DNA of 64,000 nt from Granulicella sp. GTDB lineage: Bacteria > Acidobacteriota > Terriglobia > Terriglobales > Acidobacteriaceae. The position numbers and the translations under genes were made by a program. Every line of letters begins with the position of its first letter. Position 1 is the stretch's first letter. The stretch covers positions 186,001-250,000 of the forward strand of contig DAIDGQ010000045.1 of the NCBI GenBank assembly GCA_027452215.1, in the 5' to 3' direction. Below the pieces are notes generated by a model, which had not been told where the DNA came from, did not search any database, and saw only the letters and a program-made list of their open reading frames with translations. This document shows, piece by piece, positions 5,401 through 24,468 of the stretch.

Positions 5401-5403
5401 CTC

Positions 5404-8098: not shown

Positions 8099-9436
8099 TT
8101 AGAAGAGGAACCGGGCGACCAGATAGACCGTGTTATTGTCCGTGGCGTTACGTCCAGCCAGGTCATAGTTCGTCGTTCCGCCGTTGAACCGCGTATAGCC
8201 CGTGTACTGAACCGCAAGGTCGAGGTTCTGCAGCGGCCAGTAGGAGACGTTCGCGATAAAACCAGCACTCCTCGGATCGCCATTCGCGCTCCCTGAGATC
8301 GGTGCCTGCGGATAGAGCAGCGCGTCGGTCGTCCCCTCGTTCATAAACCAGCCGAACGCCGCGGAGGCATGATTGCCGTAGTGATACTCGGCATTCACAT
8401 TCCCGGTATTCAGATGGTGAGCTACCTGCGCCGCGGCGCCCGCTGCATAACTCGCATCCAGCGAAGAGTTCTCCCGGATGTACGTGCCGCGCACCGATAG
8501 AACATCTCTGCCGAACGTATGGTCATACTCGAAGTCAGGACCGAAGTCGGTGTACGTGTCTTCCGCACCCTGGATCGCTCCCGGCGTCGACTTCATGTGC
8601 AGACCATAGCCGCCAACTTCGAGATAATCCTTTGCTCCTGTCTGTGCCCAAGCAACCCTCCAGTACGGAGCCACGCCGCGAATGTTATACGTCGCGCCCG
8701 CTCCATTCGTAGGCTGCGGAGTTCCATAGTGATCCGAGCGATACAGCGTTCCAGCCGCATACAGATGCTTGTCATACATCGTGTATGCGCCGATCCCGGC
8801 CACGTCCAGCCCGAGCTGCCCATTGATCACCGCAGTCGCTGCAGGGTTAGGTGCCGAGTCATTCGCTACGAACGGATAGCCCCACGCTGGCGTGCTGTTC
8901 CACAGATCCTCAACCGTCGGATTGTTGTTCAACATCACACCGTACACCAGGTCCTTGCCGCCTACTTCTGCCTTGTTCGCATAGCGGATATCCGTGTTGT
9001 CGATGCCGATGCTATCCGATTGCCCGTCATACGTTACCTGTACAAAGCTGCCCAGATGCTCTGACCACGCACCCGCGAAGAAGAACGCAATGTCCTGCGG
9101 AAATTCGAAGTTGCCATTCTGAGTGCCTGGCTGCGGAGCCTTGGTGCTCGTCAGCGAAGCCTCAAGAAATGCACTCAACGGCAGCGCCCCCAGCAGATCG
9201 AGCCCCGCGTTGCGCTTGCTCGCCTCCGAGATGATGTCGTCCTTCTTTGCCCGGTCGACATAACCCATCAGCTTGAATTGCCTCCCGCCTGCATTCAACT
9301 CAGGTGGTGTCGTATGACAACCGCTGCATGGCAGTCCGGTCTGGCGCGCATAGCTCGGAAGAGCCTTCGCCTTTGGTGCGAATCCACAACAGGCAGCAAA
9401 CAGTACGACAGTACTCAGTGACTTCAGACCTCTCAT
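8099..9436 (-). CDS. Outer-membrane beta-barrel protein with one N-terminal c-type heme
   Basis: 445 aa. A signal peptide is followed at once by CSGCH (residues 37-41), with the phrase 'TPPELNAGGRQFKLMGY' after it. The rest is rich in alternating aromatic strands and ends in ...VYLVARFLF. A terminal Phe is the usual outer-membrane insertion signal. No second heme motif is present. It is the first gene of the operon and could carry electrons into or through the outer membrane. The CXXCH and the barrel-like C-terminus are seen; electron conduction is inferred. It could instead be a porin whose heme has a structural role. Confidence 0.8.
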   Translation of the reverse strand: MRGLKSLSTVVLFAACCGFAPKAKALPSYARQTGLPCSGCHTTPPELNAGGRQFKLMGYVDRAKKDDIISEASKRNAGLDLLGALPLSAFLEASLTSTKAPQPGTQNGNFEFPQDIAFFFAGAWSEHLGSFVQVTYDGQSDSIGIDNTDIRYANKAEVGGKDLVYGVMLNNNPTVEDLWNSTPAWGYPFVANDSAPNPAATAVINGQLGLDVAGIGAYTMYDKHLYAAGTLYRSDHYGTPQPTNGAGATYNIRGVAPYWRVAWAQTGAKDYLEVGGYGLHMKSTPGAIQGAEDTYTDFGPDFEYDHTFGRDVLSVRGTYIRENSSLDASYAAGAAAQVAHHLNTGNVNAEYHYGNHASAAFGWFMNEGTTDALLYPQAPISGSANGDPRSAGFIANVSYWPLQNLDLAVQYTGYTRFNGGTTNYDLAGRNATDNNTVYLVARFLF

Positions 9437-9777: not shown

Positions 9778-11235
9778 TTATCGTCTTGCCGCATAGAGCG
9801 AGCTTGCCGTGCCACGCATCACTTCATCAGCAATCGCATTTGCCCGAGCTCGCGAGATCTCACCATCCCTCACCATCCCCGTAAGAGCCAACGCCAGTGC
9901 CTCCCGCCCATTGCGATTCGCAATCCACGTCGTCTCCTCCCACCCCGCGGACTCCGACAGCGCATACCCATCCGTTCCAAACATCACCTTCTCCGGATAC
10001 GTCTCCAGCCACTCGCGCAGCCACCTCGCCAGTGTCCGGGGAGGAAACATCAGCGACTGCTGCGATAGATCGAGATACATATTCGGCTTCTGCAGCAGAG
10101 CTCCCGCCTCGCGCACGAACGGCCACCCTCCATGCAGCAACACAAAATTCGTATGCCTCAATCGCGAGTCATTGAACAGCGGCTCAAGCAGCAACGGATT
10201 CGCGCCCGCAATTCCGAAGTACCCTCCGCCACCCGACAGCGTATGCAGATGCACGGCCATCCCCAGTCGCCCACACTCCGCCGCAATATACCGAAACAAA
10301 AAATCCTGCAGCCGCTTGTACTCCGCCGAATCCGGAGCGCTCTTCCCCACCCACTTCGCATATACCAGCGCTGCCTCCTGCATCGTCGGATCGGAAAAAT
10401 CAAACGACCGCAGATACGCAATCTCAAACTTCTCTGCAATCGCTCCGCCCGCGCGCTGCCGTTCCAACGTCGGAGTCACCACCTTCGCCAGGTACTCCTG
10501 CAGCGTTGACGGAACAGCCTTCATCCCAACCGCGTCAAGATATCTCGCGCGAAGCCGATCCTCCAGCGGAAAGAAAAGTTTCTTGTCCGGAGTCTGCTCC
10601 GCCAGCACGCCATTCTCCAGCGGAAACAGCAACGCATCCGCATAGGGAACCCAACGAAACCGCGGCTCCTGCACACCCGCGCCCATCGTCACGCGGTTCG
10701 CCAGCATCACGCCGATCCTCGCCTGGTCCAGCACCCACTCGTCGTAATGAACTCCCTCGCGAGCCTTCACCACCTCGCGCGCCGCCTGCAGCCGCTTCAT
10801 CCCGTCAGCATCCAACGGCCCCTTGAAGTCCACCGGAACATCAAAGCCCCACAGCGCCTTCCACGCCGCCGGTAGCTGCGGATTATCCGCACGCCACGCC
10901 ACCACATCCGTCGCCGCCTCCATGTTATCTACAGGCAGCGCATCAAAATCGCGATCCGCCTTATCCTTCGGAGGAGCAAGAATCGGATGAGCATGATTGT
11001 CGATCGCCTCCACCGAATAGATCCGCGCAGCAATCTCCGGATCAATATCGCGACTCACGCCACTCTCATCCGCAGCCGTCACTCCAGCCTGCGAAGCAAC
11101 ACTCGCGCCGGTCTGCGCCGCACAACTCGCTCCCATCGCCACCGCTGCCAACACCCACACTCCAACAGCGTGGCGACCACCCTGCATCCAACCGCGCCGA
11201 ACCGCATCGCTCCGCCGACTGTTATCCATACGCAC
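9778..11235 (-). CDS. Exported amidohydrolase-family protein (FluG/COG2159-like)
   Basis: 485 aa. A long basic N-terminus and a hydrophobic stretch (VLAAVAMGASCAAQ) indicate export, perhaps with lipidation at the Cys. The TIM-barrel metal site is visible: DNHAHP (HxH) near the mature N-terminus, AVHLHT mid-protein, LLHGGWP, and FGTDG near the C-terminus. The overall layout matches the amidohydrolase domain found alone or fused to glutamine synthetase-like domains in FluG proteins. The substrate is unknown. It is the last gene of the eleven-gene operon, 49 bases after subunit 3, so it probably acts on the pathway substrate or product in the periplasm. Confidence 0.8.
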   Translation of the reverse strand: MRMDNSRRSDAVRRGWMQGGRHAVGVWVLAAVAMGASCAAQTGASVASQAGVTAADESGVSRDIDPEIAARIYSVEAIDNHAHPILAPPKDKADRDFDALPVDNMEAATDVVAWRADNPQLPAAWKALWGFDVPVDFKGPLDADGMKRLQAAREVVKAREGVHYDEWVLDQARIGVMLANRVTMGAGVQEPRFRWVPYADALLFPLENGVLAEQTPDKKLFFPLEDRLRARYLDAVGMKAVPSTLQEYLAKVVTPTLERQRAGGAIAEKFEIAYLRSFDFSDPTMQEAALVYAKWVGKSAPDSAEYKRLQDFLFRYIAAECGRLGMAVHLHTLSGGGGYFGIAGANPLLLEPLFNDSRLRHTNFVLLHGGWPFVREAGALLQKPNMYLDLSQQSLMFPPRTLARWLREWLETYPEKVMFGTDGYALSESAGWEETTWIANRNGREALALALTGMVRDGEISRARANAIADEVMRGTASSLYAARR

Positions 11236-11284
11236 ATCTTATCGACGACGCACCTAAGTCGCGAACACTTCTTCTTCGCCGCCG

Positions 11285-11899
11285 CTACACGCCCAGCTTC
11301 GCCAGCACCGCAGGAGGGCACCCATGCCATTCACTCTGCGGCTCATTCCCCACATACGGCAGGCTGCGAATTCCCATCTCGCTCGTATAAAACCCGCTCA
11401 GCACCAGGTCGCGCATCCGGCTGAAGAACGCAACCCCCACCGCATCGCTCGCCGCAGCCTTCTCCGGATACGCCATCCGGTCCAGCATCACCCTCTGCCG
11501 ATCCGTAGGGGCCTCCACAAAATTCTGCTGCCAACTCCCCCTGCACTCCGCATCCAGCCAAGCCAGTCCACCGCGAATCTGCACCAGCAACTCGCCTCCC
11601 TGGAACTCCAGCCAGTCGTCGATAAACTCCGGCACGCCCGCATCGCTCGCGCTACCCGACGTCTCATCCGCTGGCAGAATCCAATCGCTCAAGGAGCACA
11701 CCGTCTTCCACTCGTGAGCAGTCAGCACCCTCAGCCGCCACGTCCCCGCGTCCTCATCCACTGTCCCCTCCGGCAGCATTCCCGCAACCTCCGCCGCCAA
11801 CGCAGATAGCGGCATCAGCCCCGCAATCGGCAGCGCCATCATCGCCTTCAGCATCTGCCGCCGCTGAAACCGCAGCCCCAACCTCGACTCCGTCGTCAT
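11285..11899 (-). CDS. Gluconate 2-dehydrogenase subunit 3 family protein
   Basis: 204 aa from the ATG at 11899. Longer in-frame starts would overlap the GMC gene and lack family similarity. The N-terminus QRRQMLKAMMALPIAG is a Tat-like signal. The body (LTAHEWKTVCSLSDWILPADETSGSA...) is typical of the small subunit that accompanies membrane or periplasmic GMC dehydrogenases. In characterised systems this subunit carries the signal peptide that takes the folded FAD subunit across the membrane. It starts 5 bases after the GMC gene stops, in line with a 1:1 complex. Confidence 0.87.
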   Translation of the reverse strand: MTTESRLGLRFQRRQMLKAMMALPIAGLMPLSALAAEVAGMLPEGTVDEDAGTWRLRVLTAHEWKTVCSLSDWILPADETSGSASDAGVPEFIDDWLEFQGGELLVQIRGGLAWLDAECRGSWQQNFVEAPTDRQRVMLDRMAYPEKAAASDAVGVAFFSRMRDLVLSGFYTSEMGIRSLPYVGNEPQSEWHGCPPAVLAKLGV

Positions 11900-11904
11900 C
11901 GCCA

Positions 11905-13614
11905 CTACGCCCTCCCCGTCTTCATCTGCGAGGCCACATACTCCGACGTCCGCCACGCCAGCGCCAGAATCGTCAGCGTCGGATTCTTGTCCGCAAGGCT
12001 CACAAACGGAGCTCCATCGGCCACAAACAAGTTCCTGCAATCCCACGCCTGGCAGTGTTCATTCAGCACCGACGTCTTCGCGTCGCTACCCATCCGCGCG
12101 CCGCCCACCTCATGAATCCCCTGCCCGCCCGCCGCAATTCCCCATCGCTCCTCCGCTCCATACGACTCAATCACCGTGCCGCCCGCCGCCTTCACAATCT
12201 CCTGAAACGTCGTCTGCATATGCCGAGCCATCTGCACCTCTTCCTCGCTCCACGCAAAGTGAAACTTCAGCACCGGAATCCCCCACCGGTCCACGGCCTT
12301 CTCATCGATCTCGCAATAGCTCTGCTCATTCGGAATCATCTCGCCACGCCCATGGAAGCTCACAAACGACCCGTACAGTCTGCGACTCTTCTCCTTCAAC
12401 TGCGCGCCATACCCTCCGCCCAGCAAGCCCTCTGCTCCACTCAACAATCCCGGCCCCGGCATCCCCCTCCGCCCGCCATCAAATTCGATATGATACCCAC
12501 GCGAAAACGGAAGCTCGCCCCGAGCCTGCTCCTTATACTTCCACCACGGCATATACAGATGCATGCCCCCCACGCCATCCTCGTTGTGCGCCGGCAGGTC
12601 CATCATCGCCGGTACCCATCCCGTCACATCCGACATCACCGTATCCATCAGATATTTCCCCACCATCCCACTCGAGTTCGCCAGCCCCTTCGGGTTGCGC
12701 TCACTGCGCGAATTCAGCAGCAGCCGCGCCGTCTCGCAGGCACTCGCCGCCAGCACCACCGTCCTCCCCCGCACCTCCACAGTCTCGCCAGTTTTCTTGT
12801 CGACATACGCCACCCCCGTCGCCAATCCATCCGGCCCCGTCTTCACCTCGCGCGCCATCGCGTTGCAGCGAATCTCCAGATTCCCCGTCTGCAACGCCGG
12901 ATACAACAGCACTGCAGGCGACGAAAAATTCGATCCCATCCGGCACCCTCTCCCGCACTGCGCCACATAGTGGCAGGCCGGCCGCTCACCCTTCGGCTGC
13001 GTCAGGATCGCCAGCCGCGACGGGATGCAGGGAATCTTCAAAGTCCCACAAGCCTTCTGCACCAGCCGCTCATAGCACCGCGGCGCCGGAGGAGGCTGAT
13101 ACTTTCCATCCGGAAGATTCTCCATCTCCTCCACCGATCCAAACACCCCAATCAACTCCTCCGTGCGGTCATAATACGGCGCCAGATCCTCATAGCTGAT
13201 CGGCCAGTCGAACCCCTTTCCATCGCGGCTGTGCGGCTTGAAATCATATGGCCCATTGCGCAGCGCAATCCGTCCCCACGTATTCGTTCGCCCGCCCAGC
13301 ATGCGTGACCGGAACCACTTGAACTCCGTCCCCGCCGCACACGAATACGGCTCACCCTCCACCGTCCACCCTCCCACCACCGCATCAAATCCGCCCCCAC
13401 CCATCGGCTCACGCGACGCTCCTCGATGCGCCGCGTCATACCCCCACTCCAGCCACTTCGAATCCTTCGCCGTGTCATACCAATCGCCCGCCTCCAGCAG
13501 CACACACTTCAGCCCCGCCTTCGTCAGCTGATACGCCGCCATCCCTCCGCCCGCACCCGACCCCACGATCACCACGTCGTACTGGTCCGCGCTCACATCC
13601 TCAGCACCGCTCAT
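11905..13614 (-). CDS. GMC-family FAD oxidoreductase (gluconate dehydrogenase large-subunit type)
   Basis: 569 aa. The N-terminal FAD motif is VVIVGSGAGGGMAAYQL; the C-terminal GMC signature is GGARMGSD...LFVADGAPFVSL..NPTLTI. The protein has no signal peptide and probably crosses the membrane with the Tat-type subunit 3 encoded next. It oxidises an alcohol or sugar hydroxyl; the exact substrate cannot be read from the sequence. Characterised three-subunit enzymes also have a triheme cytochrome subunit, which is missing here, so electrons may go to the cytochromes encoded upstream in the same operon. The gene overlaps the second substrate-binding protein gene by 4 bases. Confidence 0.9.
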   Translation of the reverse strand: MSGAEDVSADQYDVVIVGSGAGGGMAAYQLTKAGLKCVLLEAGDWYDTAKDSKWLEWGYDAAHRGASREPMGGGGFDAVVGGWTVEGEPYSCAAGTEFKWFRSRMLGGRTNTWGRIALRNGPYDFKPHSRDGKGFDWPISYEDLAPYYDRTEELIGVFGSVEEMENLPDGKYQPPPAPRCYERLVQKACGTLKIPCIPSRLAILTQPKGERPACHYVAQCGRGCRMGSNFSSPAVLLYPALQTGNLEIRCNAMAREVKTGPDGLATGVAYVDKKTGETVEVRGRTVVLAASACETARLLLNSRSERNPKGLANSSGMVGKYLMDTVMSDVTGWVPAMMDLPAHNEDGVGGMHLYMPWWKYKEQARGELPFSRGYHIEFDGGRRGMPGPGLLSGAEGLLGGGYGAQLKEKSRRLYGSFVSFHGRGEMIPNEQSYCEIDEKAVDRWGIPVLKFHFAWSEEEVQMARHMQTTFQEIVKAAGGTVIESYGAEERWGIAAGGQGIHEVGGARMGSDAKTSVLNEHCQAWDCRNLFVADGAPFVSLADKNPTLTILALAWRTSEYVASQMKTGRA

Positions 13615-14777
13615 CGCCGCACCTCCGTCATCCTCACCAAATGCAGTGCAGCGTGATCATTCCCCTCGCGATCAAACGAAATGCGTCCCGACACTCCACC
13701 AAAATTCTGCATCCTCGCCAACTCATCCCGCACCCTCGCGCGATTCGCTCCCGCAACCCGCAGAGCTCTCATCGTGATCATCACCGCATCGTAGCTCTCC
13801 ATCGCAGCATCACCCGGAACCTTCCCGGTCGCCAACAAATATCTCTGCGCAAAACTTCGCCGCGCCTCCGCGTCCTCACCCTCCGCAGCCGCCATCCACG
13901 CCCCCTCCCACCTCGCATCTCCCATTCCCAACTCCTCATCCCCCGCGCTCCGCGACAGATAACGGATCGTCGTCAAACCCGCGCGCTGCATCGCACCCAG
14001 CAACTCCCTCGCCTTCGCCGCGCCAGTCCATAACACCACCGCCTGCGACTCTTCCGCGCGAATCCTCTTCACCACCCCCGCCACATCCGCATGCAGAGGA
14101 TCCAGCATCACGCTCTCCGGCGCAGCCATGCCCAACTCCTTCGCCGCCGTCTCCATCGCCTCTACCCCGCGCCGTCCATCATGTTCCTGCTCCGTCACCA
14201 GCAGCACCTTCATCAGCCCGCGTTCGCGATAAATATCTCTCGCCACCACCATAGCTTCTTCATCGTCGCTGGCACCCATCCGAAAGATCCACGGAATATC
14301 AATCTCCGTCGTCGTCGCATCCGCGGCCAGCGTCAGCACCGGCACGCCAATCCGGTTGCCCACCTGCTCGCACAAGTGCGCATCCGCCCCACTCGTCGAC
14401 GTAATCATCGCGACCACCTCATCCTCCATCACCAACTGAATCACCTCATCCGACACCGCGCCCCACGACGGCCCACTCTCATCCCGCACCGCCAGCTCCG
14501 CTCTCCGCCCACCAGGCAACACATCGCCACCCGCGTCCTGCAACGCGATCCGCGCCGCCGTCACCATCGCATCACCCTCCGCCTTGCGCGCTCCATGCAG
14601 AGGAGCCAGCATCCCAATCCGCACCACCCTCCCCGTCAAATCATTCGCAACCGCGCGCCCCGCCCCCGCATAGCTCTCGCCGTCCGTCGCAATCGAAGCG
14701 TACGGCGCAACACCCTGCGCACGTACTCCACCGCCAAACACCAACAGCGCGGCCAACACACACGCCTCAGTGCGCAT
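13611..14777 (-). CDS. Periplasmic substrate-binding protein, branched-chain amino acid (Peripla_BP_6) type, copy 2
   Basis: 388 aa from the ATG at 14777, with signal peptide MRTEACVLAALLVFGGGVRAQ. It has the two-lobe type I periplasmic-binding fold: VRIGMLAPLHGARKAEGDAM, then VAMITSTSGADAHLCEQVGN and a C-terminal 'SYDAVMITMRALR'. The start overlaps the end of the first binding-protein gene by 11 bases. No permease or ATPase gene lies in the operon, so it may act as a sensor, scaffold or enzyme accessory instead of a transport component. It is diverged from its neighbour and does not look like a recent duplicate. Confidence 0.8.
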   Translation of the reverse strand: MRTEACVLAALLVFGGGVRAQGVAPYASIATDGESYAGAGRAVANDLTGRVVRIGMLAPLHGARKAEGDAMVTAARIALQDAGGDVLPGGRRAELAVRDESGPSWGAVSDEVIQLVMEDEVVAMITSTSGADAHLCEQVGNRIGVPVLTLAADATTTEIDIPWIFRMGASDDEEAMVVARDIYRERGLMKVLLVTEQEHDGRRGVEAMETAAKELGMAAPESVMLDPLHADVAGVVKRIRAEESQAVVLWTGAAKARELLGAMQRAGLTTIRYLSRSAGDEELGMGDARWEGAWMAAAEGEDAEARRSFAQRYLLATGKVPGDAAMESYDAVMITMRALRVAGANRARVRDELARMQNFGGVSGRISFDREGNDHAALHLVRMTEVRR

Positions 14778-16110
14778 ACGCCACACTCTTCGTCTTCCAA
14801 TCCGTGCGCTGCTCCGGCCAGTACACAAACTTCCCATCGCGAACCTGCGCGAACGTCACCGGAGCAATATTATTCAGCGTGTAATCAAAGTGCGCGTTGC
14901 CACTCACGCCCGCATACTCCTTCATCTCATACTCGCGCAGCGCATCCATGATCCTTCCGCGGTTCAGCCCCGCCTTCTCAATCGCCCCAATCATCAACGT
15001 CTCGCCGTCATACGCATACGCCGCATACGCATCCGGCTCCGTGTTGAATCGCGCCACAAACCTCTGCCGAAACTCCTGCCACCGTGCATCCGTTCGAGTC
15101 GGATCAATCGCACTGATCGTCACCAATCCCTCGGCCGCCGCGCCCGCAATCGTCGCCACCTCCGGAGCACAAATCCTGCTACTCCCGAACACCGGCTGCT
15201 GCATCCCCATCGCTCGCATCTGTTTCAAAATCATTCCAGCCTGCGCCGCATTTCCCCAGATCACCAACCCATCAACTCCACTCGCCTCAATCGTCTTCAG
15301 CTGCGCAGAGAAATCTCTACTCCCCGCCGCATACCAAACCTCCACCACCGGCTGGTGTCCCATGCGCCGCGCCGTATCCACAAAGATCTCCTTGCCCGCG
15401 CGCCCGTACCGATTATTCACCTGCAAAATCCCAATCCGCTTCAGATGCTGCTGCAAAAAGATGTAATCCGCCAGCGCATATCCCTGCTGCCGGTCATCCG
15501 GAAAGTTGTGCATCAGCCACGGAATCCCCGTCTCGGTCACCGTCGGATCATTCGTCGCCGTATCCATAATCGGCAGCTCCAGCTTCAGCGTCACGCGCAA
15601 CTCAATATGGGTCGACGACGAATCCACCGACCCCAGCATCGCCCAGTCCTCATCCTCAAACCGCATCGCCACCAGCGCCATCGACGACGCTCCCCACAGC
15701 GGCAGATCATCATGCACCTTCAGCTCAAACGGCTTCCCCCGATACCCTCCCTTCGCATTCGCCTCCTCCACCGCCATCTGCGCCCCATGCAGCATCGCAA
15801 TCCCATAAGGCGAATCTTCATTCACTGCATCCAGCGGCCCAAGAAACCCCAGCTTGATCGTCTTCAGCGCTGCCACATCACCGTCCGCCTCACTACGCGC
15901 CGCGCCGTCATACTCCAACGTGTTCGGCTCCACCAGCCACTGTTGATACGGCTTCCGAAACCCACCATACGGCTCCGCCACAGGAGGCATATTCGCATAC
16001 GGCATCGTCACCGCCTCCGCCGCCCTCTCCGTCACCGCCGTCTGCGGGTGCACCCCACTCGCACCTGCAACGCACAATAATCCCATCGCGATACCGCTTC
16101 GAACTCTCAT
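14767..16110 (-). CDS. Periplasmic substrate-binding protein, branched-chain amino acid (Peripla_BP_6) type, copy 1
   Basis: 447 aa from the ATG at 16110, preceded by AGACAGG; a GTG at 16119 is an alternative. After a signal peptide and an extra proline/tyrosine-rich stretch (about residues 35-75), the binding fold begins at IKLGFLGPLDAVNEDSPYG. It continues through GSVDSSSTHIELRV, PIMDTATNDPTVTETGIPWL and the C-terminal AYAYDGETLMIGAIEKAG, all typical of LivJ-like proteins. No transporter partner is encoded nearby. It sits between the DAHP synthase gene (21-base gap) and binding protein 2. Confidence 0.82.
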   Translation of the reverse strand: MRVRSGIAMGLLCVAGASGVHPQTAVTERAAEAVTMPYANMPPVAEPYGGFRKPYQQWLVEPNTLEYDGAARSEADGDVAALKTIKLGFLGPLDAVNEDSPYGIAMLHGAQMAVEEANAKGGYRGKPFELKVHDDLPLWGASSMALVAMRFEDEDWAMLGSVDSSSTHIELRVTLKLELPIMDTATNDPTVTETGIPWLMHNFPDDRQQGYALADYIFLQQHLKRIGILQVNNRYGRAGKEIFVDTARRMGHQPVVEVWYAAGSRDFSAQLKTIEASGVDGLVIWGNAAQAGMILKQMRAMGMQQPVFGSSRICAPEVATIAGAAAEGLVTISAIDPTRTDARWQEFRQRFVARFNTEPDAYAAYAYDGETLMIGAIEKAGLNRGRIMDALREYEMKEYAGVSGNAHFDYTLNNIAPVTFAQVRDGKFVYWPEQRTDWKTKSVAYAH

Positions 16111-16131
16111 CACCAGCACCTGTCTCTCGCC

Positions 16132-17061
16132 CTACCGGCTCCACGTCCAGCCATCGTTTGCCACCACATCTTCAGCCAACAACACTTCCACTTCGCGACG
16201 CTGGATGAAGCGAGCAATCCTCGCCAGCGTGCTCGGCGATATCGCCTGATCCGCATCGCACTGCGGCCGCAACACTCCGCCTCCTTCGCCCCAGCTCGAC
16301 ACCTCGATCATCAAGCCATCGCTGCCAAACTCGATCGCCGCACGGCTCGCCGCCTCCACCCTCGACCCCATCCCCGTCGCATGACTCGGGTCCGCAATCA
16401 CCGGAAGAAACGTCTCCGCATGCGCCGCCGGAATCACATTCAAATCCAACGAGTAGCGCGAGTATTCACTCGCCGCATGCGTCTTGATTCCGCGCTCGCA
16501 CAGCACGATATTCAAGTTCCCTTCGTTCGCAATATATTCCGCCGCGCCCAGCCACTCGCACAGACTCGCGGCCATTCCGCGCTTCAAGAGCACCGGCTTG
16601 CCGCTTCTCCCCACCTCCACGAGCAGCGGATAATTCTGCATGCTCCGCGAGCCGATCTGCAGCATATCCGCATACTCACTCACCATCTCCACCAGCCGCA
16701 CGTCGATCACCTCCGTCACCACCGGCAGCCCTGTCAAATCGCCCGCGGCCCGCAACAACTTCAGCCCCTCCAATCCAAGCCCCTGAAAATCATGTGGCGA
16801 CGTGCGAGGCTTGAACGCCCCACCCCGCAACATATCCGCGCCCGCCTCTTTCACTCCGCGAGCGACCTCCATCAACTGTCCCTCACTCTCCACCGCGCAG
16901 GGGCCGGCAATCACTACCGGCCTCCCTGCACCAAAGCGAGCTCCTCCCACCTCCACCACGAACCCGCCCTCATCAAACTCCGGGTGCGTTCGGCGGCTGA
17001 TGTTCGGACAGATTCGCGGCAGATCCGCAAGCCCTACTTGCCCAGCAATTTTCCTTTGCAT
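16132..17061 (-). CDS. aroF: 3-deoxy-7-phosphoheptulonate (DAHP) synthase, type I-beta
   Basis: 309 aa. It condenses phosphoenolpyruvate and erythrose 4-phosphate in the first step of the shikimate pathway. Family motifs are intact: [10 protein letters not shown] (metal-ligand Cys), [39 protein letters not shown] and IADPSHATG (metal-ligand His). The N-terminal extension of about 40 residues is short and no chorismate mutase domain is fused. Its position between periplasmic-protein genes is odd, because the enzyme is cytosolic and no other shikimate gene lies nearby. It may supply an aromatic precursor for the operon's own purpose, or the family fold may have been recruited to a related aldol reaction. 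Confidence 0.85.
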
Positions 17062-17114
17062 ACCAGCTCTCCTTCACTCCGTCTACCGACCGTCCTGTGC
17101 AAGCGTGAGACTCT

Positions 17115-17645
17115 TTATTCACTCGCCGTGCGCGCAGCACCAGGCGTCTCGAAGATCGCCATCGCTTCCATCTCAAACAGCAGACTCGGCCAGCACAGAA
17201 TCGCCTGAATCCCAGTCGACGCCGGCAGTACCTCCAAACCCTGCTCTTCAAAAAACTTCGTCCGAATTAAATTGAACTGCTCATAGTCCCGCTCAATATC
17301 ACGCAGATAGCAAGTCGTCCGCACCACGTCCTTCCACGTCGCGCCCTCCGACTTCAGCAAGTCCGTAACGTTCTGATACGCCCGTCGCGTCTGCGCCCCA
17401 AAGTCTCCCGGATGCACCGTCTCACCCTTCTCCCCCACGCTCGCCGTACCCGAAATCATCAGGATCGTGATCCCCTTGATATCCAGCCGCATCCCGCGAG
17501 AAAACGACGACGGCTTCTGATACTGGTATGCCTCATTCAGCGCCTTCGGTGCCGACATCGCCTTCTTCCGCAACGTCTTCGGAGCCCCATTGCTCCCGTT
17601 CTTCGCCGCCACGCTCGCCTCTGCTTCCATCACGATATTGCTCAT
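17115..17645 (-). CDS. RidA (YjgF/UK114) family protein with the catalytic Arg replaced
   Basis: 176 aa, longer than classical RidA (about 128 aa) because of an N-terminal extension of about 45 residues. The core matches the family: ISGTASVGEKGETVHPGDFG, then QTRRAYQNVTDLLKSEGATW and VVRTTCYLRDI. At the active site the classical PARS becomes PASTGIQA, so the Arg that binds the imino acid carboxylate in canonical RidA is Ser by alignment, whereas the later Glu (FEMEAMAI) is kept. It therefore probably does not perform the usual 2-aminoacrylate hydrolysis. It shares a 4-base overlap with the preceding gene and lies 53 bases before the DAHP synthase gene. Confidence 0.82.
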   Translation of the reverse strand: MSNIVMEAEASVAAKNGSNGAPKTLRKKAMSAPKALNEAYQYQKPSSFSRGMRLDIKGITILMISGTASVGEKGETVHPGDFGAQTRRAYQNVTDLLKSEGATWKDVVRTTCYLRDIERDYEQFNLIRTKFFEEQGLEVLPASTGIQAILCWPSLLFEMEAMAIFETPGAARTASE

Positions 17646-18778
17646 TTCCCTTGCTCCTTTCGTACCGCGCGCATCCCGTGGCTCAGGCCCTGTGCCGTCG
17701 CCACCCAGATGTCGTCGCCTTGAAAATCCGTGTTAAGAATGTAGGTGTGCGCCACGCTTGTCTCCGTGGCGATCCGCTCTTTGCTTCCATCTGCATGGGT
17801 CACAAGAATCTCCCCGCGCCCCGTCTTCGCATCCCTTCGATAGCTGACCCACGTATTCGTCCGCGTATCCAGTTCGCTCAGCCCGCCCTGCGTACTCGCC
17901 CACACCTCATCACCGCGCGAGTGCACCGCATTAATAAAATTCGAGGCCAGCCCGCTATCCTTCGTCAGATAGTTGTGCCAGTTCCGCCCGTCATACCCAC
18001 TCAACCCAAAGTAAGTCGACGCCCAAAACGTCTTCGTCTCCTCGTTGTAGCTCACGCTGCTCACAATGTTGTGGATCAACCCCTGGTTGCGATACAGCAC
18101 TAACTCCATCTCCCCATCAGGATCCGTGAACGGCTTCCACGCCTGTGTCGCAAGGTCATACGACAGCACGCCACCTCCCCACACCGCGAAATAGATCTTC
18201 TCCTTCGCCACCGAAATCCCATAGCCCCACGGCTCTGCAAACGGAGCATTGGTCTCATTGAAGATCGACCAACTCCCCGTCCGCGTATCCAGCCGATTCA
18301 CGCCCGCGCCTGTCGCCACCCACACACTCTGTCCCTGCACCGCAACGCCATACACCAAATCATTCGCAAGCCCGCTCGTCATATTCGTATAGTTCGTAAA
18401 CTTGCCACCCGAGTACCGGCTCAGCCCACCAAACGTTCCCACCCACACATCACCGCTCTCCTTGTCCACCGCAACCGACATCACCGCGCGCCCGGCCAGC
18501 CCATCCTCCTGCGTGAACACCTTCTTCACGCGGCCACCTTCCAGCATCACCAGCCCATGCGACGTTCCCGCCCACACTCGCGCTCCATCCACCGTCACGC
18601 AAAACACTTCACCCGTAGGAAACCCATTCGCCGGAGTGTAATTAATCCACCTCGTATACAGCCCTGGTGTCTGCGCAGCGCTCTGCACGCTCACACCCAC
18701 CATCGCAGCAAACAACCATCCCGCAACCACCAACACTCTTCGCATCATCCACGCCTGCATCGTCATCATGATCCTCAC
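17642..18778 (-). CDS. Exported Reg_prop-type beta-propeller protein
   Basis: 378 aa. A Met-rich N-terminus and hydrophobic segment (VLVVAGWLFAAMVGVSV) form a signal peptide. The remainder is repeats of the two-component-regulator propeller kind, each with a 'xVWVGTxGGLSRY...' strand pattern (VWAGTSHGLVML, VWVGTFGGLSRY, VWVATGAGVNRL, VWASTQGGLSEL, IWVATAQGLSHG). In hybrid sensor kinases this propeller is the extracytoplasmic sensing domain, but here no Y_Y_Y domain or kinase follows. It may therefore be a stand-alone ligand-binding or assembly protein. Both ends overlap neighbouring genes by 4 bases. Confidence 0.8.
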   Translation of the reverse strand: MRIMMTMQAWMMRRVLVVAGWLFAAMVGVSVQSAAQTPGLYTRWINYTPANGFPTGEVFCVTVDGARVWAGTSHGLVMLEGGRVKKVFTQEDGLAGRAVMSVAVDKESGDVWVGTFGGLSRYSGGKFTNYTNMTSGLANDLVYGVAVQGQSVWVATGAGVNRLDTRTGSWSIFNETNAPFAEPWGYGISVAKEKIYFAVWGGGVLSYDLATQAWKPFTDPDGEMELVLYRNQGLIHNIVSSVSYNEETKTFWASTYFGLSGYDGRNWHNYLTKDSGLASNFINAVHSRGDEVWASTQGGLSELDTRTNTWVSYRRDAKTGRGEILVTHADGSKERIATETSVAHTYILNTDFQGDDIWVATAQGLSHGMRAVRKEQGK

Positions 18779-20763
18779 AGCGTCTTCAAGTACTCGATCA
18801 AATCATTCAACTGCGCCTTATTCATATCTGAGGTCAAACCGTGTTTATCCTCCGGGTTAAATAAGGTCCAGATATCTTCCAGCTCCAGCGCCTCGCCATT
18901 GTGCAGATACGGAGGCTTCATCACCACGCCCTCCAACTGCGGAACATCGAACGCGCTGATCGTGTCATACTTCGTCGCCGTCCCCACATTTACCTGGACC
19001 CTCGATGTGAAATGCGTCAGCGGAGAATGGCACGTATAACACCGCTGCATCGGAGGGATCACGGCACCGCTGCTGCTCTTGTCGCGAAAGAACACAGCCC
19101 GTCCGCGCGCCTGCGCCTCCGTCAACGTTCCATCGGCTGCCACATGCGGGTTCTGCCCCAGGTGCAGCGAGAAGATGTACCCCACCAAATCCTCCACCTC
19201 GCTCGAATTAAACCCCTGCGACCGGAAGATATACATCGCAGTCCTCGGTCCATCCTGCGTCTCAAGATCCGGATTCTTTCCGTTCCACTTGAACGGCTCG
19301 GTCCCCGCAATGCTGTATAGCGTGCGGTTCTCCACCACATCGCGCCCTAACTGCGGAGTCTCCAAACTCCACGCCAGCCCATCCGAAAGCCCCTCATGCG
19401 GATGACACGTTGCGCACGCCATCTGTCCCTGGTAGCAATAGCTCGCGTTGTAAAACAGCCGCTCGCCGCGCCGTCTCCGCGTCAACTCCTTCGGCCCACC
19501 CAGATCAATCGTCGACACCATCTGTCTCCGCGTCATATCCATCACGCTGATCGTGTCGTCCATCCGGTTTGCGATATACGCAAACCTCCCATCCGCCGAA
19601 GCGATCACATCCGTCGGATTTCTCCCCGTCGCAACGCGTCCCTCAACAATCGCATTCGCCGAATCCAACCGGTTCGCCAGCTCCATCCTTCGCGCCGCAC
19701 TCCGCACCAGCAGCCCACGCAGCTTTACCGCATCCACCACCGACACCACATCCGCACCCGACGCTGTCACCAGCGCCCATCTCCCCTCCACCGTCGCCGC
19801 CACCCCAAACCCATCCGCATAGTAGTGGTCGATGTTATCCAGCAACACCTCCGACACCCGGTAACTCCCCGCTCCATCCGCACTCTCTCTCGCCGGCCGA
19901 ATCACCGCTACCCCATGCGTCAGATATCCTCCCTGCGGAATCTGCACCAGAGGATTCAAATTCTTCGGCCGCATAAACGGCACCAGCACATATCCCCCAG
20001 CGCTCGCAGGCAGCTCCGCAATATGCCGCATCTGGATCACGCCCTGCACATCCACCCGCGCCGCCACCACCTGCTTCGCGCAATCGATCACCGTCAACTC
20101 CGACACCGGTGGCTGATCCGGAGCCGCCAGCCGCGCCAGCAGATTCGCCACATACACCCGGCTCCCATCGCGCGAGAGCGCCACATACTCCGGATAGTGC
20201 CCCGCCTCCAGCCGCTTCCGCTCCATCCCCGTGCGCAAATCAATCACTGACACGTCATTGCCCAGCGTGTTCGCCACATACAACACCTCGCCCGCGCGAT
20301 CCGTCGTCAGTCCCACCGGCCCCCATCCCGCAGCCAGCGTCCTCCGCACCGCAAAGCTCTGCGCGTCAATCTCCGTCACCGCATTGCTCGCCTCATCCGA
20401 CACATACAGCGTCTTCCCATCCGGCGAAATAGCAATCCCCTTCGGCCGCTTGCCCACCTCCACACTTCGGACCACACGTCCCGCCCGCGTGTCCACCACC
20501 AGCATCACATCGCTGTCTTCGCACACCACATAGAGCCACAACCCATCGTGCGAAATCTGCAATGCCACCGGGCTCAAATACCACGCCCTGCCCTCCAACC
20601 TCTCGACCGTCGCACCCATCCCACGACCTGCAGCCGACACGCGAACCGGCTTCGTCGCGACCATCAACAACGACGCCAAAATCATCGCAATCGCTGCGAT
20701 GCCGATCGCCGCTTCCTCCCACCTCTTCATCTGCGCAACCGGACTCCCACGACGTCCCATCAT
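18775..20763 (-). CDS. YVTN beta-propeller fused to a di-heme cytochrome c peroxidase/MauG-like domain
   Basis: 662 aa. One N-terminal membrane anchor (AAIGIAAIAMILASLLMVA) is followed by YVTN-family propeller repeats ('GIAISPDGKTLYVSDE', 'LYVANTLGNDVSVIDL', 'RFAYIANRMDDTISVIDM'-like units) over roughly residues 50-430. The C-terminal 230 residues are a di-heme domain with CATCHPHEG and CYTCHSP, plus the conserved phrase KPPYLHNGEALELEDI. Related fusions include oxidases and peroxidases acting on peptides or polymers. It is probably anchored on the periplasmic face and is the best candidate in this operon to take electrons from the GMC dehydrogenase or to carry out an oxidation itself. Confidence 0.85.
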   Translation of the reverse strand: MMGRRGSPVAQMKRWEEAAIGIAAIAMILASLLMVATKPVRVSAAGRGMGATVERLEGRAWYLSPVALQISHDGLWLYVVCEDSDVMLVVDTRAGRVVRSVEVGKRPKGIAISPDGKTLYVSDEASNAVTEIDAQSFAVRRTLAAGWGPVGLTTDRAGEVLYVANTLGNDVSVIDLRTGMERKRLEAGHYPEYVALSRDGSRVYVANLLARLAAPDQPPVSELTVIDCAKQVVAARVDVQGVIQMRHIAELPASAGGYVLVPFMRPKNLNPLVQIPQGGYLTHGVAVIRPARESADGAGSYRVSEVLLDNIDHYYADGFGVAATVEGRWALVTASGADVVSVVDAVKLRGLLVRSAARRMELANRLDSANAIVEGRVATGRNPTDVIASADGRFAYIANRMDDTISVMDMTRRQMVSTIDLGGPKELTRRRRGERLFYNASYCYQGQMACATCHPHEGLSDGLAWSLETPQLGRDVVENRTLYSIAGTEPFKWNGKNPDLETQDGPRTAMYIFRSQGFNSSEVEDLVGYIFSLHLGQNPHVAADGTLTEAQARGRAVFFRDKSSSGAVIPPMQRCYTCHSPLTHFTSRVQVNVGTATKYDTISAFDVPQLEGVVMKPPYLHNGEALELEDIWTLFNPEDKHGLTSDMNKAQLNDLIEYLKTL

Positions 20764-22472
20764 CGCGTCGTCCCCTTCGCCGCAACTGGCGCTGCAACAA
20801 CTGCGGCCGCAGGCTCCGTCACCTTCAGCACCTGGTCCGCCTTCACATCATGCAGCGTCTGCACCGTCCCACTCGGCCAATGAATCGTAAGCGTATCCAC
20901 GACCGCATGCGACCCCAAACCGAAGTGCGGTCGCGAATCATTCTGCGAAAGATACCCGCTCTCCGAAGTCGATTGCACCCACTGCTTCAGCTCGCCCGCC
21001 ACCGCCTCCAAACTCGCACCATAGCCATCGCGATTGCTCCGCGTCCCCACCAGCTTGATCGTCAACCAATGATTCCGCTTGTCCGCCGGAGGAGTATTGT
21101 GCAGCAAGATTCCCTTGCCCCCCAGCGTCGTCACAAACGCATCCACATACCCATCGTTGTCGTAGTCCGCAAAGCAAGCGCCGCGACTCACACTCTGTTT
21201 CTGAAAGAACGCACCCGCCTGCAACGACACATCGCTGAACGTTCCATTGCCGTTATTCCGCAGCAATGAACTCTGCTGTGGAACCAGCCACACCAGCCCA
21301 CCATTCACGATGAACAAGTCCTTCCATCCATCGTTATCAAAATCAAACAGCCCATCGCCCCACCCCACAAACTGCGCCGACACCTGCCCTACGCCCGACG
21401 CATTCGTCACATCCTCAAACCCTCCGCCCGCCCTCCCCGCACCCCGCAGCAGCCGATGATAATGCGCATCCGAAACAAACAATGACTGCCGCCCGTTATT
21501 CTCATAGTCCCCAAACACCGGCCCCATCGCCGTCGACGCCTCGCCGTTCTGCCCATACGCAGCGCCCACATCCGCCGCCACATCCGTAAACGTCCCATCG
21601 TGATTATTGCGATACAGAAAGCTAGCCATCGTGTCATTCGCAACATAAAGATCCGGCCATCCATCGCCGTCGAAATCCCCCACCGTCACGCCCATCGCGC
21701 GCGCCGGCTGCGCCCCAATCCCCGACGCCTTCGACACATCCGCAAACGTCCCATCGCCATTGTTATGCAGCAACCGGTTCGTCTCCGGCGCATACTCCAG
21801 CGGCCCCGGATACTGTTGCGCCGAATAATATTGCCGACTGCTCGGATCGAACTTCAGATAATTCCCCACGAACAAATCCAGCCGCCCATCGTGGTCGTAG
21901 TCCAGAAACGCCGCGCCCGTTCCAAAGAACGCGTTGTTCGCCCCAGCCTTCGCCGTTACATCCGTGAACGTTCCATTCCCGTTGTTGTGATACAAAATTG
22001 CCGAGTTGTAATTCGTCACATACAAATCTTCATTGCCATCGTTATCGAAGTCCCCCGCCGTAACCCCAACCCCAATCCCCTTACCCGGCACGCCCGCCTG
22101 CGCCGTCACATCCGTAAACGTCCCATCCCCATTGTTCCGATACAAATGGTTCGTCGCCCCCACTCCATCCGCCGCCGAGTGGTCCGTCAGCCCATCAACA
22201 TGTCGCCCATTCGCAACATACAAATCCATTAGCCCATCGTTGTTGTAATCCAGCCACGCGCACCCCGACCCCGTTCCCTCCTGAATCGAGCTCAGCGCCT
22301 TCTCGCCAAACGAATGTTGAAAATCAATCCCCGACTTCGCCGTCACATCCACAAACTGCGGCAACCCCGCAGCACGCACCGCAACGTCCGCACTCTGCGA
22401 TAGGGCACTCAACGCCACACTCAACATCACCCCCGCACACGCCCATCGCATCCTCATCATCGAACTCCTCAC
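20760..22472 (-). CDS. CRTAC1-family FG-GAP/VCBS repeat protein with ASPIC/UnbV C-terminus
   Basis: 570 aa, exported (signal peptide ending near ALSQS). Many calcium-type FG-GAP repeats are visible ('LDYNNDGLMDLYVANG', 'GDFDNDGNEDLYVTNY', 'DYDHDGRLDLFVGNY', 'FDFDNDGWKDLFIVNG', 'ADYDNDGYVDAFVTTL'), forming an integrin-like seven-bladed propeller. The C-terminus (GLGSHAVVDTLTIHWPSGTVQ) is the ASPIC/UnbV domain that defines the family. The molecular role of CRTAC1 proteins is unknown; extracellular binding is the usual suggestion. 4-base overlaps on both sides place it firmly in the operon. Confidence 0.88.
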   Translation of the reverse strand: MRSSMMRMRWACAGVMLSVALSALSQSADVAVRAAGLPQFVDVTAKSGIDFQHSFGEKALSSIQEGTGSGCAWLDYNNDGLMDLYVANGRHVDGLTDHSAADGVGATNHLYRNNGDGTFTDVTAQAGVPGKGIGVGVTAGDFDNDGNEDLYVTNYNSAILYHNNGNGTFTDVTAKAGANNAFFGTGAAFLDYDHDGRLDLFVGNYLKFDPSSRQYYSAQQYPGPLEYAPETNRLLHNNGDGTFADVSKASGIGAQPARAMGVTVGDFDGDGWPDLYVANDTMASFLYRNNHDGTFTDVAADVGAAYGQNGEASTAMGPVFGDYENNGRQSLFVSDAHYHRLLRGAGRAGGGFEDVTNASGVGQVSAQFVGWGDGLFDFDNDGWKDLFIVNGGLVWLVPQQSSLLRNNGNGTFSDVSLQAGAFFQKQSVSRGACFADYDNDGYVDAFVTTLGGKGILLHNTPPADKRNHWLTIKLVGTRSNRDGYGASLEAVAGELKQWVQSTSESGYLSQNDSRPHFGLGSHAVVDTLTIHWPSGTVQTLHDVKADQVLKVTEPAAAVVAAPVAAKGTTR

Positions 22473-23884
22473 GGCCTCACCGCCTTCTTCGCATCACCCA
22501 CCAAATCACTCGGCGTATCGAACCGCTGCAGCGCCATCGGCGACCGATTTTCCGGAGCCAGCACCTGGCTCTCATGACATCCCGGGCATCCACGATCCTC
22601 TCCTCCGCGCACCCACATCCAGCTCCGCTGCGCCTTCACCACCGCGCCCTTCGTCCCCACCAACTCCACGCGTATCGCCACGTCCGCCGGCACCGTCGCA
22701 TAGAACGATCCATCCGCCTCCACCGGAGCCTCGCCCAGCACCCGCTCGCCGCCGCGATCCTTCGCCAGCACACGCACCCGAGCAACACGCCCCGCCAGCC
22801 GCCCACTCGCCACGTCCTCGGACGAATAAGCATCAAGGCAAAGCAGCCGCCCCGTCGTTCTCTCCGGATGCAAAATACTGCGATACGCCTGCACCGGAGC
22901 ATGCGCCGCAATCTCCACGGCCTGCGCACTCACTCCCTGTGCACTCCGATACACCAACGTCTCGCGCCCACCGCGCAGCAAATCCATGCTGTACAACGCG
23001 CCCCCGCGCGACACCACCAGCGTCCCATCCCCCATCTCCGTCACCGACGCATATCCAAGCTCCGCCCCGTGCATCGCCACCGCATGCAGCGCCCCCGGCC
23101 GAATCCACTCCAGCACTCCACCCGCAGCCCGCGCCATCGCTCGCTGCACAAACACAATCGTGCCATCCGCCAACTCCGTCGCCCCACCACGAATCGCTCG
23201 CGCCCCATCATCCTGCCGCAGCAGCGCCAACCCCGACCCATCCGGGTCCATCACATACAGCGCCCTACCCTGCCCACCCACACCCGTAGCCGACACCAGC
23301 AGTCGCCCACTCCGCAGCGCCGTCTCCACCTCATACTCCCCCGGCCCAAACGTAATCGCATGCGCCTCCACTCCACTCCTCGCACTCACATAGATCTCGC
23401 CCGCACGCCCCGCAGCCCCAGCCAACGAATACGCAATCGCATCCCCCGGTAGATACACTGCCCGTACACAATCCCCCGAGCAATGCGTCACCTGCCGCGC
23501 ATCCCCGCCCTCCGCGCTCATCTCCCAAATCTGCCACGTGGAATCTCGCTGCTTCCTGCCGCTAAACAGCACCCGCGTTCCATCAAACGACACCTGCGGA
23601 TCAGCCACCGCAAAGAACTCCGGAGTCATCACAACGGGCGGCTCCGCAGCGGCCACTCCCGCTATCCACGCCGCACTCCGCATCAACTGGCTGCCCTGCG
23701 GATACCTCCCCACCACATCCCCAGCCACCACCACCGAGGCACGCACGAAGGCAATCGCGCCGTGTGCATGGTTGGGAGAGACCATGACACTCGTAGACGA
23801 ATCCTGCACAGCCCCGGCTGGTTTACTTACCGTGCTCAGGGCCAGGGCAAGACCTGTGAGCACACCTCTCCACGCCAACTTCAT
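22469..23884 (-). CDS. TolB-like beta-propeller protein with a C-terminal c-heme motif (HzsA-related type)
   Basis: 471 aa, first gene of the operon, with a signal peptide ending near SKPAGA. The body has TolB/WD40-like repeats ('FDGTRVLFSGRKQRDSTWQIWEM', shown here only as the first recognisable blade around residue 110, and later 'LYVMDPDGSGLALL' units), a beta-sandwich-like stretch (GRVARVRVLAKDRGG...) and one heme site GCPGCHE near the C-terminus. The combination resembles the family named after the hydrazine synthase alpha subunit, but the similarity covers only the architecture and does not imply hydrazine chemistry. The rest of the operon follows with 4-base coupling. Confidence 0.75.
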   Translation of the reverse strand: MKLAWRGVLTGLALALSTVSKPAGAVQDSSTSVMVSPNHAHGAIAFVRASVVVAGDVVGRYPQGSQLMRSAAWIAGVAAAEPPVVMTPEFFAVADPQVSFDGTRVLFSGRKQRDSTWQIWEMSAEGGDARQVTHCSGDCVRAVYLPGDAIAYSLAGAAGRAGEIYVSARSGVEAHAITFGPGEYEVETALRSGRLLVSATGVGGQGRALYVMDPDGSGLALLRQDDGARAIRGGATELADGTIVFVQRAMARAAGGVLEWIRPGALHAVAMHGAELGYASVTEMGDGTLVVSRGGALYSMDLLRGGRETLVYRSAQGVSAQAVEIAAHAPVQAYRSILHPERTTGRLLCLDAYSSEDVASGRLAGRVARVRVLAKDRGGERVLGEAPVEADGSFYATVPADVAIRVELVGTKGAVVKAQRSWMWVRGGEDRGCPGCHESQVLAPENRSPMALQRFDTPSDLVGDAKKAVRP

Positions 23885-24141
23885 GTCTGCTTTTGCGCAA
23901 GCTGGGATTGGCCGGCTTGTGCGCCTGCTTTCTATCTCCGGTTATGGAGCTCTGAGTACGATGTATACCCACCCGACCCCACCGTTGTATTGGACCAGTA
24001 GGTTGATTACTGCACCCATCATTCGATGGAGCCCATCCACGCGCGCCCACTGGTCCCCTCCCTGCGCGCCCCACAAACAAGAGTGGGCGCAGCCATCGCC
24101 GCGCCCTCCCTGTCTTCCACCTCTCATTTCATCCGCGCGAC
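23885..24141 (-). promoter_or_regulatory. Promoter region of the eleven-gene operon
   Basis: 257 bases between the HhH gene (ends 24142) and the first propeller gene (starts 23884), with no gene inside. On the minus strand TATACA (23962-23967) is a plausible -10. The position 17 bases upstream reads ATACAA, a poor -35, and it is directly abutted by TGGTCCA (23991-23997). This fits an activator-dependent promoter; the -10 was chosen by eye and is not certain. Confidence 0.35.
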
Positions 24142-24468
24142 TTACTTCTTCTTCGTCGCCTGCGACGCAATCACCAGCGGAGCAATCTTCGTATACGTCG
24201 CCGCCGGAACAATATTCCTGCTCTTCAGCTGCGTCTTATTCGCATAAGGTCGTCCATCGATAATCTTCTGCGAGTACACATCGCCCACACCCGGCAGCGC
24301 CTTCAACTGGTCCTTCGTCGCCGAATTAATATCCACCAGGCTACTCGTCGTCGCCGCTGCGGCAGGCTTCGTCGCCGACTTCGCCTGCAACGCCACCGCC
24401 GGCAGCACGCCCACCAACACAGTAGCTACAAGAGCCAGCGCCATAGTCTTCATCTGTTTAAACGTCAT
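24142..24468 (-). CDS. Secreted helix-hairpin-helix (ComEA-type) protein
   Basis: 108 aa from the ATG at 24468, preceded by GAGGAGAATGGC. A signal peptide (MKTMALALVATVLVGVLPAVALQA region) is followed by a low-complexity Ala/Thr linker. A helix-hairpin-helix domain comes next: VDINSATKDQLKALPGVGDVYSQ, here named by its core LPGVGDVYSQKII. ComEA-type domains bind DNA without sequence specificity in the periplasm during uptake. No competence genes are nearby, so DNA binding is a family-based inference. Confidence 0.85.
   Translation of the reverse strand: MTFKQMKTMALALVATVLVGVLPAVALQAKSATKPAAAATTSSLVDINSATKDQLKALPGVGDVYSQKIIDGRPYANKTQLKSRNIVPAATYTKIAPLVIASQATKKK

Follow-up and report, generated by a model that had tools for sequence, protein, structure and literature searches.

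The closest described relatives of the genes considered here are those of hydrazine synthase (HZS), known from Kuenenia as structure 5c2v, and of its homologues. Heme alpha-I of HZS is liganded by Tyr591, four residues past the His of the CxxCH motif, and heme gamma-I carries a third thioether bond, to gamma-Cys165 (main text of PMC12758564; passages of PMC12607021). The beta and gamma subunits are fused in Scalindua HZS, and HZS homologues are co-located as alpha, CRTAC1 and fused beta-gamma, in part with two periplasmic binding proteins (PBPs) downstream; at the Tyr591 position these homologues are reported to have a two-residue gap (main text of PMC12758564). According to the same text, the top structure matches of HZS alpha include no protein with an experimentally confirmed other function, and a broad HZS-like family with other substrates has been suggested (passages of PMC10732223). 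Here, we describe eleven genes, g1 to g11, in a 64,000-nucleotide stretch of DNA (the window) from a 2.5-Mb draft genome of Granulicella sp., 59% complete. Profile comparisons indicate that counterparts of the alpha, beta and gamma subunits of HZS are encoded together in the window. On balance, we lean toward the view that the genes belong to a conserved acidobacterial operon for a periplasmic, multi-heme redox complex of the HZS family, which probably catalyzes a different reaction. Hydrazine synthase itself is rejected on the basis of residues, and the version of the operon in the window is a derived one, with a GMC module. The genes are as follows:

g1, 22469..23884, minus strand: HZS alpha-like protein, 471 amino acids; TolB-type propeller and HZS_alpha middle domain; one CxxCH motif (C433, C436, H437)
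g2, 20760..22472, minus strand: CRTAC1-type FG-GAP / UnbV_ASPIC protein (PF13517 E 1.6e-51, PF07593 E 3.8e-20)
g3, 18775..20763, minus strand: fused HZS beta-gamma-like protein; propeller and di-heme CCP/MauG-type domain (C450xxC453H454, C575xxC578H579)
g4, 17642..18778, minus strand: Reg_prop-type propeller (PF07494); N-terminus like a signal peptide by eye
g5, 17115..17645, minus strand: Rid-family protein, 176 amino acids (PF01042 E 4.9e-17)
g6, 16132..17061, minus strand: DAHP synthase without the N-terminal part of the PRK08673 model
g7, 14767..16119, minus strand: Peripla_BP_6 binding protein (PF13458 E 4.2e-45); N-terminus like a signal peptide by eye
g8, 13611..14777, minus strand: second Peripla_BP_6 binding protein (PF13458 E 1.6e-40); most likely start given
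g9, 11905..13614, minus strand: GMC FAD oxidoreductase (PF05199 E 5e-23, PF00732 E 2.5e-11); accessory of one subclade
g10, 11285..11899, minus strand: gluconate 2-dehydrogenase subunit 3-like protein (PF13618 E 5.6e-26); N-terminus Tat-like by eye; most likely start given
g11, 9778..11235, minus strand: amidohydrolase (PF04909 E 7.6e-13); a neighbor outside the conserved unit

An earlier reading of the window, made from its letters alone (the sequence-only reading), gave domain names that are, within their limits, consistent with Pfam, but missed the HZS homology of g1 and g3. Profile and structure matches correct the first gene to an HZS alpha homologue. Pfam finds the middle domain of HZS alpha, PF18582, in g1 with an expectation value (E) of 1.5e-17, and a profile of its 13 orthologues (A1) finds HZS alpha, 5c2v_A, at E 7.6e-31. 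In a Foldseek search with its predicted model (mean predicted local distance difference test score, pLDDT, 77), 5c2v takes ranks 1 and 2 (E 5.9e-20) and TolB rank 3 (1.9e-9). The C-terminal second-heme (alpha-II) domain is lacking; the sole CxxCH lies at 433–437 of the 471 residues. An alpha-like protein of genome G055 (L039:3392-5179) has a C-terminal extension that bears further CxxCH motifs. For g3, previously a ‘di-heme cytochrome’, the profile match identifies an HZS beta-gamma homologue: profile A2 finds HZS beta (5c2v_B) at E 7.8e-54 over 340 profile positions, and HZS gamma (5c2v_C) at E 1e-35. The surface-layer propeller 1l0q beats HZS (E 8e-65), via repeats in the propeller part, and the heme domain is recognized by Pfam as CCP_MauG (E 2.7e-11). 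NCBIfam HZS scores lie far below the cut-offs (alpha, 64.6 bits versus 800; beta-gamma NF052342, 156.7 versus 1250, E 7e-46), and g1 and g3 are therefore distant homologues.

Residues were compared in 79 g1 open reading frames (ORFs) of at least 350 amino acids, out of 103, and in 77 distinct g3 ORFs of at least 500 amino acids, out of 107; the latter comprise 75 operon copies and two that are not operon copies (L101 and L132). Residue roles come from PMC12758564 and PMC12607021, and HZS gamma numbers were moved by hand from a hidden Markov model alignment. The heme motifs are kept. The CxxCH of g1 is invariant (79/79), as are both C-terminal CxxCH motifs of g3, together with His621 and His641 (77/77). 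The residues specific to HZS are lost. At the column equivalent to Tyr591 (441), g1 has Glu, Ala, Ser or Val in all 79 ORFs, and never Tyr. The gamma-His144 position is Trp493 in the window and Trp in 75/75 operon copies; the gamma-Asp168 position is Thr508 in the window and mainly Thr, Leu or Ile among the copies; and position 503 is Gln or Glu in 75/75. At the gamma-Cys165 position the window has Asp504, and the 75 copies have Cys (53), Asp (17), Ala (3) or Gly (2). We rejected the idea that the operon product is hydrazine synthase itself because active-site residues of HZS differ in both g1 and g3. This combination of retained heme motifs and lost HZS-specific residues agrees with the verdict of PMC12758564, in its main text, on the HZS homologues it describes.

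Three samples (80 Rid loci, 61 genomes and 299 genomes) were read for gene order; they share genomes, and their counts are not added up. Among 60 relatives beside the window's own genome, 13 have a g4 orthologue, always within the operon (in G013, where reading frames are broken, in two pieces). The order g1-g2-g3-g4-g5, then g7 and g8, is observed in all 13, as far as contigs reach. g6 lies between g5 and g7 in the window and in 8 of the 13, and upstream of g1 in G004, G008 and G029; it was not seen in G038, nor in G011, whose contig begins inside g3. In the class sample, g1 (E 1e-20 or better) occurs in 51 of 299 genomes, with a further copy in G098, G113 and G147. The 49 newly read g1 loci contain g2 (47), g3 (44), g4 (42), g5 (39), g6 (23), g7 (40), g8 (10), and g9 and g10 (4); g2, g3, g4 and g7 occur together in 40, and 8 of the others are cut by contig ends. 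The set reaches other classes of the phylum, less completely. g1 was found in 13 of 277 genomes of a phylum sample, 10 of them outside the class, and the 11 loci there have g3 (9), g4 (8), g7 (7), g5 (4) and g6 (4: G368, G398, G419 and G502). CRTAC1 precedes g1 in six of these loci and follows it in four, the contig ends in G419, and in G467 a second locus lacks g4 and g7. The conserved set thus comprises the HZS alpha-like protein, the fused beta-gamma-like protein, CRTAC1, Reg_prop, one or two PBPs, usually Rid and often DAHP synthase. The sequence-only reading had proposed a single unit and suggested looking for the same order elsewhere; the genes do behave as one, and that order recurs across genera. 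A contig titled Arcobacter sp. (L115) also carries the acidobacterial operon; its title is probably wrong, as G131, whose contig is equally long, is placed in the window's class.

The partner proteins are of several kinds. In g5, a Ser is aligned to the Arg of 2dyy, a protein of the RidA type; this Arg we take to be the active-site residue of RidA imine deaminases, Arg105 in E. coli RidA. LPAST was found first in 124 of 133 Rid ORFs. The chorismatase model TIGR04444 is matched by all 14 members of the g5 set (A3); at E 0.001, E. coli RidA and YjgH do not match it. The g5 of the window scores 28 bits with the FkbO/Hyg5 chorismatase model (cut-off 325), in the C-terminal part of the model only, and we treat a possible chorismatase link as a lead only. 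g6 satisfies curated DAHP synthase cut-offs (NF006421, 344 bits versus 335; a second model, 309.2 versus 267.75) and covers positions 75–327 of the 338 in NF006421. In each of the 13 operon genomes searched, a member of PF00793 (a family that takes in KDO8P synthases as well) is encoded outside the operon; in G001 a second, full-length DAHP synthase (model positions 1–336) is among them. Queries with g7 and g8 both match one long ORF in G004, G008, G011 and G029. A search of 27 operon genomes for the LivHM-type permease family PF02653 gave no match in 17 of them (in 15 of 25 when only the better drafts are counted); the 17 include the window's draft as well as G151 and G190, each a single contig. 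In the genomes that have it, the family is encoded on a different contig or some 60 kb or more from the operon; as a control, the same search recovered it from 12 of 14 well-known genomes. Since so many operon genomes lack a LivHM-type permease, the operon PBPs probably do not serve import.

Rid paralogues also occur away from the operon. A Rid-profile scan of named genomes gave 375 relatives among 383 pattern matches, and the best 80 were kept. Of these loci, 49 have g3 plus g4 or g7, and 29 have no g3 in view; three of the 29 (L060, L078 and L130) still contain g4, g7 or both and probably represent truncated operons. In 15 of the 29, a gene for a 2OG-Fe(II) oxygenase lies close to the Rid gene. 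Seven of the 15 (L073, L080, L084, L085, L086, L089 and L097) also have NnrS and a Crp-type gene, and three of the seven (L084, L089 and L097) a quinol nitric oxide (NO) reductase. The seven look closely related, and so we count them as one lead. Among the other 51 loci, eight have a Crp/Fnr-type gene upstream of g1.

A tree of the 77 g3 ORFs, made by a quick method with column 504 and the N-terminus excluded, divides the acidobacterial copies into three main groups, of 13, 31 and 30. The group of 13 has g3 with extra hemes (10 CxxCH motifs in the seven ORFs checked), and 30 of the 31 in the second group have a long PBP of 604–670 amino acids. The group of 30 contains the window. Nested in it is a subclade of 19 (support 99) that holds all 15 copies with a GMC gene, and in which the gamma-Cys165 position is Asp or Ala throughout. 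L104 sits on a long branch, and its placement is unsure. Eight ORFs, either incomplete or the outgroups L101 and L132, carry no GMC label on the tree, and a GMC-like match in L114 (opposite strand, 38%) was set aside. GMC is found in 6 of the 13 relatives (G014, G053, G013, G041, G043 and G039), at 69–92% identity, and in 15 of the 75 operon copies; in the other 60 none was seen in the stretch read, some of these being cut by contig ends. None of the 53 copies with Cys at gamma-165 has GMC, versus 15 of the 22 without. A paired test of Cys loss against GMC gain yields two pairs, neither of them informative, and all 15 GMC copies sit in one subclade. We rejected the match between loss and gain as independent evidence.

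From these observations a mechanism can be sketched. g1, with its propeller and one-heme site, would form a complex with g3, with its propeller and CCP/MauG-type di-heme domain, and CRTAC1 and Reg_prop would be structural partners of the heme complex. The PBPs, to judge from the missing LivHM-type permeases, would hold a small ligand in the periplasm and not import it. Rid and DAHP synthase, both of cytosolic type, might conceivably supply a small molecule derived from shikimate. In the subclade of the window, a GMC flavoenzyme and its small partner would have been added, and because the operon has no separate cytochrome subunit beside GMC, these most likely feed electrons to the hemes of the complex.

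Several points weigh against this interpretation. Co-location is no proof of one pathway, and we infer export and the direction of electron flow, as well as complex formation, this last by analogy with HZS. The predicted model of g3 has low confidence over the heme domain (mean pLDDT 69). PF02653 is one permease type only; other types were not searched. G092, which has nothing of the set but g1 and g2, is a genuine exception, and g6 is present in only 23 of the 49 loci. A Rid gene on the same strand was not seen in 10 of the 49: six of these loci are cut (G113, G150, G162, G178, G261 and G113b), G214 has the gene on the other strand, and the lack is real in G205, G296 and G092. In two genomes, the window's draft and G008, the housekeeping DAHP synthase may be g6 itself, because the only other PF00793 copy found there is a KDO8P synthase (type II enzymes were not searched).

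Homology of g1 and g3 to HZS also suits a complex that acts on reactive nitrogen, heme gamma-I binding or reducing NO, or handling hydroxylamine, and the alpha heme coupling or oxidizing the product, in an HZS-like chemistry with a partner other than ammonia. We consider this unlikely, although several observations point toward it. Quinol NO reductase occurs in 35/51 operon genomes versus 42/248 others, and in 9/14 versus 11/72 within the window's family (86 genomes). In the same family an HAO-like protein occurs in 9/14 versus 3/72, and in the smaller set of relatives the counts over cut-off are 6/14 versus 6/47 for NO reductase and 5/14 versus 4/47 for the HAO-like protein. Cys occupies the third-thioether position in 53 of the 75 operon copies, one lineage has the 10-CxxCH form of g3, and, of the 29 Rid loci lacking g3, seven combine a Rid paralogue with NnrS and a Crp-type gene (three of them also with NO reductase). 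A hydrogenase control, however, shows enrichment as well (20/51 versus 33/248; in the window's family, 8/14 versus 12/72), and lifestyle therefore explains part of the NO reductase and HAO-like excess. Only NiFe matches better than E 1e-100 count in this control (53 genomes), and that threshold was picked after the matches had been seen; the family's own cut-off is passed by 161 of 299 genomes. The NO reductase excess exceeds that of the control, in counts uncorrected for shared ancestry. The class-wide HAO-like excess (24/51 versus 31/248) is about as large as the control's, and four of its matches (G151, G155, G190 and G202) fall in g3 itself; without these the count is 20/51, or 21/51 if a weak second match in G202 is kept. 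The residues speak against it as well: Trp at gamma-His144 in every operon copy, mainly Thr, Leu or Ile at gamma-Asp168, no Tyr at Tyr591, and Asp504 at the Cys position in the window. A bolder form of the idea, which we hold to be distinctly improbable, makes the complex a widespread acidobacterial enzyme of the HZS family, outside anammox, whose own reaction depends on NO or hydroxylamine and acts on a ligand bound by importer-less PBPs, perhaps joining nitrogen to a shikimate-derived molecule by way of DAHP synthase and Rid; the GMC module would then represent a rewiring at the loss of the third Cys in the subclade of the window. As a separate observation, HAO-like and quinol NO reductase genes lie about 2 kb or less apart, on opposite strands, in G014:C14, G004:C150, G331:C1 and G236:C4.

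Peroxide chemistry offers another explanation: g3 might be a CCP/MauG-type peroxidase, or a protein-modifying oxidase acting on a partner protein (e.g. g2 or g4) or on a bound organic ligand. The CCP_MauG domain of g3, with its two CxxCH motifs and conserved Trp, is what such an enzyme would have; a Trp deemed important in CCP and MauG by the main text of PMC12758564 is present in 75/75 operon copies, as is the Gln or Glu at 503. Yet the closest solved heme-protein relative of g3 by profile is HZS gamma, ahead of the di-heme proteins 6e1c and 1iqc, and peroxide chemistry alone leaves the alpha-like partner unexplained. We think it a minor candidate, with little chance of being right. The sequence-only reading had instead put the GMC enzyme at the center, oxidizing an alcohol or sugar, with further processing by the amidohydrolase. 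GMC and its Gdh3-like partner do sit in the operon, and GMC shows 69–92% identity across six loci, but GMC is restricted to one subclade, and most operon copies have none in view. The amidohydrolase g11 is beside no other operon copy read, and was rejected as part of the system. We regard this model as highly improbable, and continue to favor the HZS-family redox complex.

The layout of the locus was largely as first read. All eleven ORFs, from 23884 down to 9778, are real at the coordinates originally given, and 4-base overlaps, computed from the ORF ends, occur at 13611, 17642, 18775, 20760 and 22469. The 11-base overlap at 14767 depends on the start of g8. Its longest ORF reaches to 14837, but an internal ATG at 14777 opens a stretch like a signal peptide and is for that reason the most likely start. 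The start of g10 is most likely 11899, not 12046 as listed. One further feature may mark the boundary of the operon upstream of g1, as 24106–24085 in the direction of transcription:

24085..24106, minus strand: terminator-like hairpin upstream of g1; 9 pairs, 8 of them G-C, with a T-rich tail; a consensus match only

The signal is a weak one, as ten such hairpins were found in all, versus 8.0 (standard deviation 3.4) in shuffles; the same scan lists none in the g10–g11 interval. A scan with Rfam gave no matches, and a promoter scan gave one site versus 4.6 expected. Between the operon and a gene for a MocR-type regulator (24653–26143) lies a small, exported-looking ORF on the minus strand (24162–24467), helix-hairpin-helix-like by eye. 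Downstream, 634–9436 on the minus strand is a run of electron-transfer genes: an Ig-cytochrome, a multi-heme cytochrome, a split cytochrome b (ExtP/ExtQ-like), a Rieske protein, a GltD-like FeS flavoprotein, a cupredoxin, and a CxxCH protein without a Pfam match. The product of 8099–9436 had no match in a search of solved structures. g11 and the genes of this run are on the same strand as the operon and have no counterpart around the other operon copies read, some of which are cut by contig ends; single matches occur in L095, a Rid locus without the operon. The Rieske and cytochrome b genes were rejected as system parts because no counterpart accompanies other operon copies.

A fixed gene set in many acidobacterial copies makes this operon a tractable place to learn what the HZS family does outside anammox, and some copies belong to records that bear genus names, for example Granulicella (L055) and Occallatibacter (L112). 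The functional options are narrowed by the additional partners (Reg_prop, Rid, DAHP synthase, and PBPs without a LivHM-type permease), and the subclade that has lost Cys and gained GMC provides a natural comparison.

Among known systems, g9 and g10 resemble parts of the three-part FAD glucose dehydrogenase (GMC, small subunit and cytochrome c), although the operon has no dedicated cytochrome subunit next to them. The sequence-only reading knew of no named system with this gene set. That is correct only in part, as a core of the set is in print (PMC12758564); the main text of that paper has no match for acidobacteri, RidA, DAHP, Terriglob or Granulicella, and names Paludibaculum. Among the titles listed in our literature search, whose scope excluded subscription papers and preprints, none concerned the wider operon, and no paper was found on CRTAC1, Acidobacteri and cytochrome together. 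The Phycisphaerae hzs-like genes are similar in that an hzsA-like gene adjoins a fused hzsBC-like gene; they differ in belonging to another phylum, and the passages concerned mention no other operon members (PMC10732223). Clades I–III of PMC12758564 share with the operon the arrangement alpha–CRTAC1–fused beta-gamma with PBPs downstream, and the same loss of key residues; clades II and III share the short alpha too. Any assignment of the operon to a clade would be tentative. Cys at gamma-165 is reported there for clade I, and here it occurs in two-heme copies too; alpha homologues are described there from a few obligate anaerobes, whereas here 51 of 299 genomes of the class carry one. HZS itself, finally, corresponds to the operon in its alpha, beta and gamma counterparts, by profile in each case and for alpha also by structure. 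It differs in that the operon has beta and gamma fused, an alpha without the second-heme domain, and several altered active-site residues, and in that the operon genes are set among those for CRTAC1, Reg_prop, PBPs, Rid and DAHP synthase.

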